64,000 bases of DNA from Melioribacteraceae bacterium (GTDB lineage Bacteria; Bacteroidota; Ignavibacteria; Ignavibacteriales; Melioribacteraceae): NCBI GenBank assembly GCA_027030245.1, contig JALVFE010000009.1, forward strand, positions 1-64,000. Direction: 5' to 3'. Each line of letters begins with the position of its first letter. Within the stretch, counting starts at the first letter, position 1. Position numbers and translations under genes: made by a program. A model generated the notes under the pieces. The model was not told the DNA's origin. It did no database searches and worked only from the letters and a program-made list of their open reading frames with translations. This document shows positions 41,462 to 44,829 of the stretch, one piece after another.

Positions 41462-42286
41462 ATGAATATTTACGAACTGAATTACCATAAAATTAAATTT
41501 GCATTGGAGTTAATTTCCTCACCCGAAGAGAAGCTTAGTTATCTCTATCAAATAAAAATAGAGATAAACCGTGTAATTCAGTGCTTCACTAAAAAAAAGT
41601 TTTTACCCTTGCGCAAATATGCTATGGATAACATTTTTTTGGAAGACGGATGCCCCGAATTAAACAAATTTATGAAACAACTTTTGGCATTTTACGATTC
41701 GCGCCCCAACGAACAACGATACCCGAACGAAGATATTCTGTTAAGGCACATAAAAAAGGAAATTAAGAAATATGAACGGCTGGGAAAATTAATAGATGCC
41801 GAAATCGATTATTTTACTAAAAGAAGGGATCAAAAGATAAATATTTCCCAGAATGAATCGAATATAAAACAAGGAAATAAAAATATTTCGGAAAAATTAA
41901 AATTATCGGAAACAGAAACCATGGAAGAACTTGAAAAGAAAAATAAAGTTGACCAAGCCAGAAAAGAGGTTGCGAAAAATACCACTTCAATTCGCGAATT
42001 AAAAGAACAACAGAAAAAAATTGTTTGGCAAGGTTCGCAAACGGAATTGATTTATTTTTTCGATCAACTGTACGACATGGATTTCATGTCCATTAAAAGT
42101 TATGACGAAATTTTCGCAATTATCTCAAAGTTTTTTGTAGACAAAGACGGGCAACCGTTTCGTACAGATAAAGTTGCCGAAATGAAACTACAGCAGAGAA
42201 AAAGCAGCATGCCGAAAGGTTATGCGCGGTATATGAAAGTAATAGATAAATTAAAAGCCAAGGGCAGCGGTAATCCTAATTTATAA
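41462..42286 (+). CDS. Uncharacterised protein, possibly RteC-like
   Basis: The 274-residue product is hydrophilic, with a coiled-coil middle (EELEKKNKVDQARKEVAKN). The C-terminal block, IVWQGSQTELIYFFDQLYD followed by EIFAIISKFF and a K/R-rich helix, resembles the C-terminus of RteC, a regulator of conjugative transposons in Bacteroides, but I cannot confirm this. There are no transposon genes around it. It stands alone after a terminator, with a 228-base gap upstream, and converges on a Spy-like gene across a long hairpin. It could be a domesticated regulator. Confidence 0.55.
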   Translation: MNIYELNYHKIKFALELISSPEEKLSYLYQIKIEINRVIQCFTKKKFLPLRKYAMDNIFLEDGCPELNKFMKQLLAFYDSRPNEQRYPNEDILLRHIKKEIKKYERLGKLIDAEIDYFTKRRDQKINISQNESNIKQGNKNISEKLKLSETETMEELEKKNKVDQARKEVAKNTTSIRELKEQQKKIVWQGSQTELIYFFDQLYDMDFMSIKSYDEIFAIISKFFVDKDGQPFRTDKVAEMKLQQRKSSMPKGYARYMKVIDKLKAKGSGNPNL

Positions 42287-42327: not shown

Positions 42328-42831
42328 TTAAAATTTTGGTTTAAAGAAATTTCCGAACTTTCCTCTCATTCCCATTCGGTGATGTTCGAACTTTCCGGGT
42401 CTATGCATTTCAACAAATCTTTTGAAATTGGAAATCCAAATTTTTTGCTGCTCCGGTTTTAAAATTTTATAAACCGCAAACCATGTATTCAATTTCGATC
42501 GCATAATCTTTCCTTGTAAATCATCTATCTTATCCGAAAGCGAAAGGATTTTATCTTCATCAATATTTCCTGTGTTCATCATTTTGTTTATTTCCAATTT
42601 GGTTTTCCGGATTTCCGCTCTCAAATCTATAGCTTTTTTTCTGTGCCCGTATGTTATTTCGTAAAATTGATTTTTTTGGGATTCGTCCAGATTCAACTTA
42701 TTGATTATTTTTCCGTGTTTGAAATTCGCATCGACCGGCGGTTTGGGTCGCGGCTGAGCAATTACACTTGCGGTTAGAATTATTAATAAAAATAAGAAAG
42801 ACGGGACAAAATTCTTAACTTGAACTTTCAT
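42328..42831 (-). CDS. Spy/CpxP-like periplasmic protein
   Basis: The 167-residue product has a signal peptide (FLFLLIILTASVIAQ) and a helical mature part of the Spy/CpxP/CnrX class. It shows LNLDESQKNQFYEI and, further on, LKPEQQKIWISNF, the LTxxQ-type pairs of this fold, plus a His/Met/Arg-rich tail (MHRPGKFEHHRMGMRG) that could bind metal. Such proteins are periplasmic chaperones or metal sensors. It diverges from an ECF sigma gene. The same promoter-like motif is found on its side of the shared region, so it is a likely target of that sigma factor. Confidence 0.75.
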   Translation of the reverse strand: MKVQVKNFVPSFLFLLIILTASVIAQPRPKPPVDANFKHGKIINKLNLDESQKNQFYEITYGHRKKAIDLRAEIRKTKLEINKMMNTGNIDEDKILSLSDKIDDLQGKIMRSKLNTWFAVYKILKPEQQKIWISNFKRFVEMHRPGKFEHHRMGMRGKFGNFFKPKF

Positions 42832-42872: not shown

Positions 42873-42934
42873 GTTAGACAAACCCATTAAAGTAAAGGTT
42901 TAATTAAACCTTTCCGGCGCGGGAGTTGTCTAAC
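42873..42934. promoter_or_regulatory. Symmetric divergent ECF-type promoter region
   Basis: The 62 bases are a mirrored unit. GTTAGACAA at 42873-42881 and TTGTCTAAC at 42926-42934 are perfect inverted copies. A perfect 20-bp palindrome (AAAGGTTTAA/TTAAACCTTT) lies at 42894-42913, exactly 12 bases from each. Read outward in either direction it gives AAACCTTT-N12-TTGTCTAAC, which fits the AACC(TTT)...GTCTAA pattern I associate with ECF promoters in Bacteroidota. One promoter would serve the ECF sigma gene, the other the Spy-like gene. Confidence 0.7.
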
Positions 42935-42954: not shown

Positions 42955-43503
42955 ATGGCGGAAGAGAAAGACGAAATTCTTGTTCGGAAATTTTTGGATG
43001 GTGATGAACGTGCTTTCAACGAAATTGTTATCCGTTATAGGAAAAAAATCTATTGGCATGCAAGAAGAATGCTGGGTAATCATCCCGATGCGGACGATGT
43101 AACGCAAGATGTATTGGTTCAAGTTTACAAAAAATTAAAAACATTTAAGTTTAATTCGTCGTTATATACATGGATTTTCCAAATAACGAGCAGAAGATGT
43201 TTGAACAAAATAAAGAAAAACAATATTAAAAAGTTTTTATCGTTGGATAATGAACATGAAAATTTTTTACGCAATAACGACGATATTATAAAATCTTATG
43301 AAGATAAAGAAAAATTGGAAAAGCTAAACAAAATATTGAACGGAATTCCCGCCAGACAAAAGGAAGTATTTTTGCTTAAACGGTTTGAAGGACTTACATA
43401 TAAAGAGATTTCCGGAATAACCGGCAAGAGTATCGGTTCGTTGAAGGCAAGTTATCATTTGGCTTTACAAAAAATTTTAGAGAGAATGAGCAATGAAGAA
43501 TAA
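42955..43503 (+). CDS. ECF RNA polymerase sigma factor
   Basis: The 182-residue product has sigma region 2 (FLDGDERAFNEIVIRYRKKIY, then ADDVTQDVLVQVYKKL) and region 4 (GIPARQKEVFLLKRFEGLTYKEISGITGKSIGSLKASYHLA), with a short linker and no region 3, which is the ECF layout. It is the first gene of an operon with a membrane anti-sigma-like gene (11-base overlap) and a Spy-like periplasmic gene. The mirrored promoter region upstream suggests that it controls itself and the divergent Spy-like gene. The signal may be envelope stress or metal. Confidence 0.93.
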   Translation: MAEEKDEILVRKFLDGDERAFNEIVIRYRKKIYWHARRMLGNHPDADDVTQDVLVQVYKKLKTFKFNSSLYTWIFQITSRRCLNKIKKNNIKKFLSLDNEHENFLRNNDDIIKSYEDKEKLEKLNKILNGIPARQKEVFLLKRFEGLTYKEISGITGKSIGSLKASYHLALQKILERMSNEE

Positions 43504-44050
43504 AGAGAAAATATTAAAATATTTAAGTTACCGGATGAACGAAGTTGAGAAAGAGAAATTCGAGAAAGATTTGCAAAGTTCGGAATCTTTAAAAAGAGAA
43601 TACAACGAAACTGTCAAACGTCTGAAAAACCTTGAGGCTTTGGGTAATGTTGAAACCCGTGAAGATTATTTTTCTTCGCTGTTACCAAAAATTCGTGAAA
43701 AATCGGAAAAACAAAAGAAAAGGGTCTATACAATTTCGTATGGCTTGGCAATAGTGCTGAGCGTATTTGTTATTATCTTTTATTTCGTCGGACAAGGTAA
43801 TAAATCTTTTCTTACCGATTCCGATTTCGATAAAATATTCGACGATACTACGTCCGTAACTCTTGTTTCGGATATTATTGATAATGAACAAATCGACTTG
43901 GATGATTCCTATTTCCGGTTGAACGATTTCGATTTGACTGCGGAATATTTCCGGAATTTACCTGAAAGCGATTTAATGTTAATACTTAACTCTCTCAACG
44001 AGGAAGAGTTAACCGAATTGGAAAAAGAAATTTCAGTAAAAAAATTATAG
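43493..44050 (+). CDS. Membrane anti-sigma factor-like protein
   Basis: The 185-residue product has a cytoplasmic N-terminal helical part (KYLSYRMNEVEKEKFEKDL, similar to zinc-free anti-sigma domains), one membrane segment (YGLAIVLSVFVIIFYFVGQ, about residues 83-101) and an acidic periplasmic tail. It overlaps the ECF sigma gene by 11 bases, which is the usual place of the anti-sigma partner. It would hold the sigma factor at the membrane until a periplasmic signal arrives. There is no recognised named domain, so the call rests on topology and context. Confidence 0.7.
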   Translation: MKNKEKILKYLSYRMNEVEKEKFEKDLQSSESLKREYNETVKRLKNLEALGNVETREDYFSSLLPKIREKSEKQKKRVYTISYGLAIVLSVFVIIFYFVGQGNKSFLTDSDFDKIFDDTTSVTLVSDIIDNEQIDLDDSYFRLNDFDLTAEYFRNLPESDLMLILNSLNEEELTELEKEISVKKL

Positions 44051-44058
44051 GTGAAACA

Positions 44059-44529
44059 ATGAAAAAAATTGCGATGACCGTATTTATTCTGATATTGTTT
44101 ACAATAGTCAGTAACGCACAAATTGAACACAGGCGACCGCACCATTTCGGTAAAGGATGGGCAAAAATAGAACAGCTTGAGAAATTAAAACTTTTGGAAA
44201 TACTTGACTTGGACGAAGAAACTTCCGTGCGTTTTTTTGCAAGAAAAAATAAACATCATAAACTTCAGAAAAAATTAATGGAGCGGAAAGACAGCTTGAT
44301 TTCGGTTTTGGAAAATTACGTTGATGATTCCGCAGGGCAAAATAAAATAATGTCGTTGGTAAACGAAATTAACGGAATTGAAATACAACTTGCGAAAAAC
44401 AAAAAAGAATTTATAGCTTCTCTCACAGATATTTTAATTCCCGAACAAATTGCAAAAATGGTAATTTTCGAATCCCGGTTCAGACGAAAAATTGCCGATT
44501 TCCTCGTTAAGAAACGGAAGAGAAAATAA
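44059..44529 (+). CDS. Spy/CpxP/CnrX-like periplasmic protein
   Basis: The 156-residue product has a signal peptide (MTVFILILFTIVSNA) and a highly helical, basic mature part. LEILDLDEETSVRFFARKNKH and LTDILIPEQIAKMVIFESRF correspond to the paired LTxxQ-like helices of Spy and CnrX. His clusters (HRRPHHFGKG, KNKHHKL) could bind metal. It is the third gene of the ECF operon. By analogy with CnrYXH of Cupriavidus, where CnrX is the periplasmic metal sensor, it may detect the signal. It resembles the divergent gene at 42328. Confidence 0.72.
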   Translation: MKKIAMTVFILILFTIVSNAQIEHRRPHHFGKGWAKIEQLEKLKLLEILDLDEETSVRFFARKNKHHKLQKKLMERKDSLISVLENYVDDSAGQNKIMSLVNEINGIEIQLAKNKKEFIASLTDILIPEQIAKMVIFESRFRRKIADFLVKKRKRK

Positions 44530-44713: not shown

Positions 44714-44797
44714 GCGGAAGTGGTGAAATTGGTATACACGCTACTTTGAGGGGGTAGTGCCCGCAAGGGCGTACGGGTTCAAGTCCCGTCTTCCGCA
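44714..44797 (+). tRNA. tRNA-Leu (anticodon GAG)
   Basis: The acceptor stem GCGGAAG at 44714-44720 pairs with CTTCCGC at 44790-44796, with A as discriminator base. The anticodon arm CTACT-TTGAGGG-GGTAG gives GAG at loop positions 3-5, reading CUC/CUU. A long variable arm (TGCCCGCAAGGGCGT region) marks a class II tRNA such as Leu. The T-arm is ACGGG-TTCAAGT-CCCGT. CCA is not encoded; ACTA follows. Confidence 0.95.
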
Positions 44798-44829
44798 CTA
44801 GTCATCTAAATTAAAAAAAAGGGGAAAGT

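Follow-up and report, generated by a model that had tools for sequence, protein, structure and literature searches.

ECF sigma factors are generally regarded as readers of isolated promoters. In the CnrYXH system of Cupriavidus metallidurans, the ECF sigma factor CnrH is accompanied by a membrane anti-sigma factor and the periplasmic helical protein CnrX; this system is not known to have a divergent Spy gene or mirror promoters. Divergent arrangements have been described elsewhere. At the EcfG/NepR-PhyR locus of Alphaproteobacteria, an ECF sigma operon lies divergently to another gene, and both have promoters belonging to the same response, as at the locus described here, but that locus relies on a partner-switching anti-sigma system (PMC8103513, available part of the text); the same part contains no statement on mirror phasing of the EcfG/PhyR promoters. 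In published bidirectional promoters, both directions use one -10 element, and the distance between start sites is most often 18, 10, or 23 bp; those of E. coli resemble the present locus in divergent transcription, symmetric sequence, and possible polymerase competition (PMC12825309, available part). Unlike in E. coli, however, each promoter here has a -10 box of its own, and the -35 boxes are central. Finally, the ThnR-activated tetralin promoters form a close divergent pair showing a mutual boost in activity that depends on helical alignment (PMC4834489, available part). There, contact is made by a LysR-type activator, whereas here no activator was seen and the repeats are the boxes of the sigma factor.

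The nearest precedents are thus EcfG, for same-response divergence at an ECF locus, and ThnR, for phase-dependent cooperation with an activator. Divergence and activator-based phasing are already known; the new element would be a phased ECF promoter pair without an activator. No description of phased divergent promoters read by the same sigma factor, or of the arrangement in Ignavibacteria, was found in the open-access literature, and an envelope-stress module of Ignavibacteriales was likewise not described in the open-access literature searched.

Anatomy of the divergent promoter pair

The locus belongs to a Melioribacteraceae bacterium (GCA_027030245.1; whole genome, 3.8 Mb). The window, that is, the whole stretch of DNA analyzed, comprises positions 1 to 64,000 of the forward strand of contig JALVFE010000009.1 and contains the following features.

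42328..42831, minus strand: gene of a Spy/LTXXQ-type secreted protein, behind the divergent promoter
42874..42880, minus strand: -10 box TGTCTAA of the divergent promoter
42894..42913, no strand: 20-bp palindrome
42897..42903, minus strand: -35 box TTAAACC of the divergent promoter, adjoining the other -35 box without an intervening base
42904..42910, plus strand: -35 box TTAAACC of the sigma operon promoter
42927..42933, plus strand: -10 box TGTCTAA of the sigma operon promoter, 16 bp downstream of its -35 box
42955..43503, plus strand: ECF sigma factor gene
43493..44050, plus strand: candidate membrane anti-sigma gene
44059..44529, plus strand: gene of a small secreted helical protein, distantly Spy/CnrX/ZraP-like and third of the operon

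Read directly, the letters at 42873-42934 are GTTAGACAA-N12-AAAGGTTTAATTAAACCTTT-N12-TTGTCTAAC, matching letter for letter the layout given by an earlier, sequence-only reading of this DNA, in which two -35 boxes stand back to back inside a palindrome. The boxes named in that reading, AAACCTTT and TTGTCTAAC, did not prove to be the conserved units; relatives keep TTAAACC and TGTCnAA, 16 bp apart. In these terms, the stretch holds an outward-facing pair of TTAAACC-N16-TGTCTAA copies, with the -35 boxes abutting (gap 0) and with 46 bp (42881-42926) between the two -10 boxes. The perfect 20-bp palindrome is indeed present in this genome, but only its inner 14 bp, which are the two -35 boxes, are conserved: the outer 3 bp of each arm differ already in the nearest relative (G003, with AAACCAAT and AAACCCTT) and match here by chance. 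Few genomes besides this one have the perfect symmetry, the gap being 0 in 3 of 128 loci and 0-2 in 7.

The sigma operon and the divergent gene

The sigma gene starts 21 bp past the right-hand -10 box, with the Shine-Dalgarno-like GGACGGAG in between. Its assignment to an ECF sigma factor in the sequence-only reading is confirmed by Pfam: the 182-aa product contains Sigma70_r2 (residues 25-89, 54.1 bits) and Sigma70_r4_2 (residues 122-174, 49.7 bits), both above cut-off, and has the sigma2 and sigma4 domains only, which is the domain composition of ECF (group IV) sigma factors. Its solved relatives are SigH, SigE, SigW, and CnrH (E 2.9e-08 for CnrH), and its close matches in named genomes come from Melioribacteraceae, Ignavibacteriaceae, other Ignavibacteriales, or bins assigned to the phylum only. 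The original definition of ECF sigma factors, which was relaxed later, included autoregulation from a promoter whose -35 box holds AAC and whose -10 box holds CGT (PMC8103513, available part). Compared with that definition, TTAAACC contains AAC, whereas the -10 box is TGTCnAA and not CGT.

The second gene overlaps the sigma gene by 11 bases, and its product (structural model, mean pLDDT 78.5) has an N-terminal helical domain, one hydrophobic segment, and a C-terminal tail. An ORF occupies this place in all 131 loci with enough sequence, and has the hydrophobic segment in 129 of them. No anti-sigma family matched the product above cut-off in Pfam or NCBIfam (best NCBIfam E 0.038). Given its usual place and its hydrophobic segment, the product is a candidate anti-sigma factor. 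The family alignment shows a conserved C-terminal tail, EExxxIYxxLxxKK, which is perhaps a docking site for the secreted third protein.

An ORF in the third place of the operon is found in 128 of the 131 loci. In contrast to CnrYXH, the third protein here reaches the cut-off of no Pfam or NCBIfam model; among 36 homologues, with E up to 0.1, Metal_resist was matched by 6, the copy of this genome not being one of these, and LTXXQ by 5. Its structural model (mean pLDDT 92) has CnrX and ZraP among its fold matches. CnrX was matched with a Foldseek probability of 1.00 and a TM of about 0.65 on the target, but at an E of 0.07; in a further fold comparison, ZraP reached a Z of 10.7 over 78 residues and CnrX a Z of 9.2 over 104 residues, scores that unrelated helical bundles reach similarly. 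Neither the anti-sigma candidate nor the third protein obtained a useful match when solved structures were searched by profile. The mean column identity of the third-gene family is 41%, versus 27% for the anti-sigma candidate family, and the former carries the motif LEKIKLIExLNLDEETxxKFFARR. Downstream of the operon, a tRNA-Leu (gag) is located at 44714-44798.

On the opposite side, the Spy-like gene recognized from the letters also holds up in Pfam, the product of 42328..42831 scoring 43.1 bits for Metal_resist (cut-off 29.2) and 25.1 bits for LTXXQ (cut-off 24.3). For the Spy equivalog of NCBIfam (NF007769), it scores 36.7 bits against a curated cut-off of 174. On these profile scores, it is best regarded as a relative of Spy and not as Spy itself. 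The gene behind the mirror promoter is of the Spy/LTXXQ type in all 128 loci that have this promoter, being recognized in 124 by an LxLTxxQ-like motif and in the other 4 by a slightly different form of that motif, judged by eye. Taken together, the promoter pair and its genes very probably form a small, self-contained module for envelope stress, with the pair as its control region.

Conservation of the promoters among relatives

Within the 64-kb window, nothing but the pair matches AACCTT-N16-TCTAAC when one mismatch is tolerated, but 9 of 100 shuffles likewise yield two matches to this loose, short pattern. The strong evidence for the promoter pair is its conservation in relatives rather than its rarity. 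Sigma orthologues with their surroundings were collected from the order Ignavibacteriales (141 loci in 140 genomes; G103 and G104 were left out, with matches at a contig end or containing a stop). The motif was found upstream of the sigma gene in 136 of the 141 loci, and its mirror copy in 128. Dinucleotide shuffles of the 400-bp upstream regions gave means of only 0.22 (sigma-side) and 0.34 (mirror) per 139 loci, L108 and L109 being left out as contig ends without an upstream region. Because the loci were found with a pattern, the invariance of the boxes is partly by construction; in a pattern-free count of the region 25-75 bp upstream of the sigma gene, TTAAACC is the commonest 7-mer, occurring in 119 of 139 loci. 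The spacer between the -35 and -10 boxes is 16 bp in 132 of 136 sigma-side promoters and in 113 of 128 mirror promoters, and its letters vary among relatives. Thus, the proposal that the boxes are kept and the spacers are not, for which loss of the boxes in relatives had been named as a refutation, survived the comparison. In two species of one genus (L195 in G137 and L220 in G135), the sigma-side -10 box is TTGTTTAA, and not TTGTCTAA or TTGTCAAA, with the -35 box kept.

Outside the order, 27 of the 28 matches listed were taken (G505 was left out). A similar promoter precedes the sigma gene in 9 of 13 relatives from the same class, with TTAAACT as the -35 box in all nine, and the mirror copy—sought only where a sigma-side promoter was present—was found in none of these nine. 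Elsewhere in the phylum, none of 14 loci has the sigma-side promoter. As the class relatives outside the order have the sigma-side promoter without its mirror, autoregulation looks older than the mirror arrangement.

Spacing and helical phase of the -35 boxes

The 13 loci without a mirror promoter, L108 and L109 among them, were omitted from all gap counts. Over the remaining 128 loci, the gap between the two -35 boxes ranges from 0 to 245 bp: it is 8-13 bp in most relatives (75 loci, these gaps being 78% A+T), 0-2 in the 7 loci mentioned above, 20-23 in 2, 24-29 in 1, 30-34 in 8, 39-42 in 7, and more than 48 in 28. No gap of 3-7, 14-19, 35-38, or 43-48 bp occurs among these loci. When 164 genomes were scanned for the double site, with gaps of 0-30 allowed, 76 of them matched in one place each, and the gaps were 0-2, 8-13, 22, and 30 only, with zero control matches. 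In the genus of the window itself, the gap is 0 and 1 in two species and 12 in two others, with all four boxes recognizable. One genome, G144, has two sigma loci (L180 and L217), with gaps of 86 and 11.

For a test of phase, departures from the 10-11 state were collapsed by hand on a sigma tree with many weak forks, giving 17 independent gaps up to 45 and 17 from 46 to 95, with the limit of 45 set post hoc. Within that limit, 16 of the 17 gaps lie within 2.6 bp of a whole 10.5-bp turn (Rayleigh p 0.0015; 0.0026 under an integer null), and 27 is the sole near gap out of phase. Of the gaps from 46 to 95, 7 of 17 lie as close, which is unphased (p 0.67). The p value becomes 0.011 when the limit is left free, 0.008 when the period (9.5-11.5) is freed as well, and 0.076 when the period may range from 5 to 20, for which the best period is 10.0. 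For derived gaps up to 95 deduplicated by genus, p is 0.057. Four genera have moved to a gap of 0-2, and others to 22, 30-34, or 39-42, values near whole turns. The evidence for close promoter pairs being kept on a single DNA face is good, if not overwhelming, and this helical quantization offers initial evidence that each of the two sites matters to the other. Close coupling would nevertheless be dispensable, since 28 of 128 gaps exceed 48 bp, gaps of 46-95 are unphased, and no mirror was found in 13 of 141 loci (two of them contig ends).

A second divergent pair with the same motif was observed in G084 (L311, at about 2044 on the minus strand and 2109 on the plus strand), away from the sigma gene and between genes for a 641-aa secreted protein and a lipoprotein-like protein; its gap is 50, out of phase.

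Regulon

A search with AAACCTTT-N11-13-TTGTCTAAC, which had been suggested as a way to define the regulon, was set aside for that purpose: in the whole 3.8-Mb genome, it matches this locus only, once on each strand. With no other full-motif site beyond the divergent pair in this genome, the core regulon would be the pair itself. When two mismatches were allowed, AACCTTT-N12-TTGTCTAAC matched one additional place in the genome, with 17 matches for the reversed control. A looser pattern (TTAAACY, N15-17) gave two extra sites in the same genome versus four control matches, and these were not counted as regulon.

Across the 85 genomes of the order Ignavibacteriales that are at least 95% complete, TTAAACC-N16-TGTCnAA has 193 sites, versus 37 for the reversed pattern, and 104 of the 193 are at sigma loci. 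In 37 of these genomes, no site lies away from the sigma locus, and beyond the pair there is about one site per genome, partly by chance. Seventeen additional loci were examined, in which several sites lie 29-57 bp upstream of genes for secreted proteins or lipoproteins; furthermore, two Spy-like genes outside the mirror position have the same promoter (G067, L312:278; G120, L313:1963). These isolated sites before Spy-like, secreted-protein, and lipoprotein genes indicate that each box can serve alone. Judging from the genes so marked, the sigma factor seems to act for the cell envelope and to have a single constant partner, a Spy-like gene.

Proposed mechanism

The motif, its conservation, the gene order, and the distribution of gaps are read in the sequences themselves, and the following model builds on them. 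The ECF sigma factor encoded from 42955 would recognize TTAAACC-N16-TGTCnAA, with start sites predicted from the positions of the boxes. The sigma-side copy would drive its own operon—the sigma factor, the putative membrane anti-sigma factor, and the secreted CnrX/Spy-like protein—resulting in positive autoregulation, and the mirror copy would drive the Spy-like periplasmic chaperone. Under envelope stress, the putative anti-sigma factor would free the sigma factor, so that both promoters fire in step, and the secreted third protein probably senses or damps the periplasmic signal, as CnrX or CpxP do.

When the -35 boxes are near each other and separated by about whole turns, both holoenzymes would be on the same face of the DNA, where they may touch or share an alpha-CTD platform, the occupancy of one promoter then affecting the other. 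By arithmetic, a gap of 0 would put the contact points of the two sigma-4 domains about 9-10 bp from each other, and a gap of 10-11 would put them 19-21 bp from each other, on the same side. A gap of 10-11 may permit co-binding of two holoenzymes. At gap 0, simultaneous occupancy is doubtful, and this genome may show alternating use. That two holoenzymes with the same sigma factor sit back to back on a single DNA face and regulate each other directly, without an activator, is a tentative reading, to which we assign a probability of roughly 0.3. The pair would then be a co-binding unit with whole-turn spacing across the order, contact being made through sigma-4 domains or alpha-CTDs.

Alternative explanations

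The distribution of gaps bears chiefly on two alternatives to direct coupling. The two ECF promoters might be independent, lying close together in a compact intergenic region, with the gap of 10-11 inherited, other gaps drifting, and the polymerases not interacting. The module persists with gaps of more than 48 bp in 28 loci, the gaps of 46-95 show no phase, the period-free test is at p 0.076, and isolated copies of the promoter exist, all of which fit independence; against it stand the four empty classes of gap and the shifts away from 10-11 that fall near whole turns. We put independence at a little below even odds. Another explanation of the phase is alpha-CTD placement, the AT-rich -35 box of the opposite promoter acting as an UP-like site at about -41, -51, -62, -72, or -82, where the alpha-CTD is favored, without contact between holoenzymes. 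At the observed gaps, the center of the opposite box computes to about -(41 + gap); the A+T content of the 8-13 bp gaps also agrees with such a site. The entire region is AT-rich, however, so the exact position of one AT-rich stretch should be unnecessary, and we consider this explanation improbable.

Two further alternatives concern the symmetric sequence. GGTTTAA-N-TTAAACC might be the operator of a dimeric DNA-binding regulator, its likeness to -35 boxes being secondary. The dyad is perfect in this genome, and two bound sites would give phasing, as ThnR does elsewhere (PMC4834489, available part). This operator was rejected on spacing: each half-site is at a nearly fixed 16 bp from its own TGTCnAA, whereas the distance between half-sites varies over the whole range of gaps. 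Single half-sites with TGTCnAA also precede other genes, a slightly changed single half-site precedes the sigma gene in the nine class relatives outside the order, and of the module's four proteins and the product of the ORF at 41462, the sigma factor alone shows a DNA-binding domain in Pfam. Such an operator is very unlikely. A bidirectional promoter with a shared symmetric -10 element would likewise account for the divergent symmetric arrangement, but the -10 boxes are separate (42874-42880 and 42927-42933) and the center is the -35 region. This candidate was rejected on that anatomy and has next to no chance of being correct.

Implications

For an envelope-stress module in a mostly uncultured order, the locus supplies a well-defined promoter motif, together with a core regulon that is very small. 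If the holoenzymes are indeed coupled directly, this phased and conserved back-to-back pair would provide a natural example of polymerase–polymerase coupling, with 128 natural spacing variants. Such coupling would set the ratio of self-amplification of the sigma operon to chaperone output.
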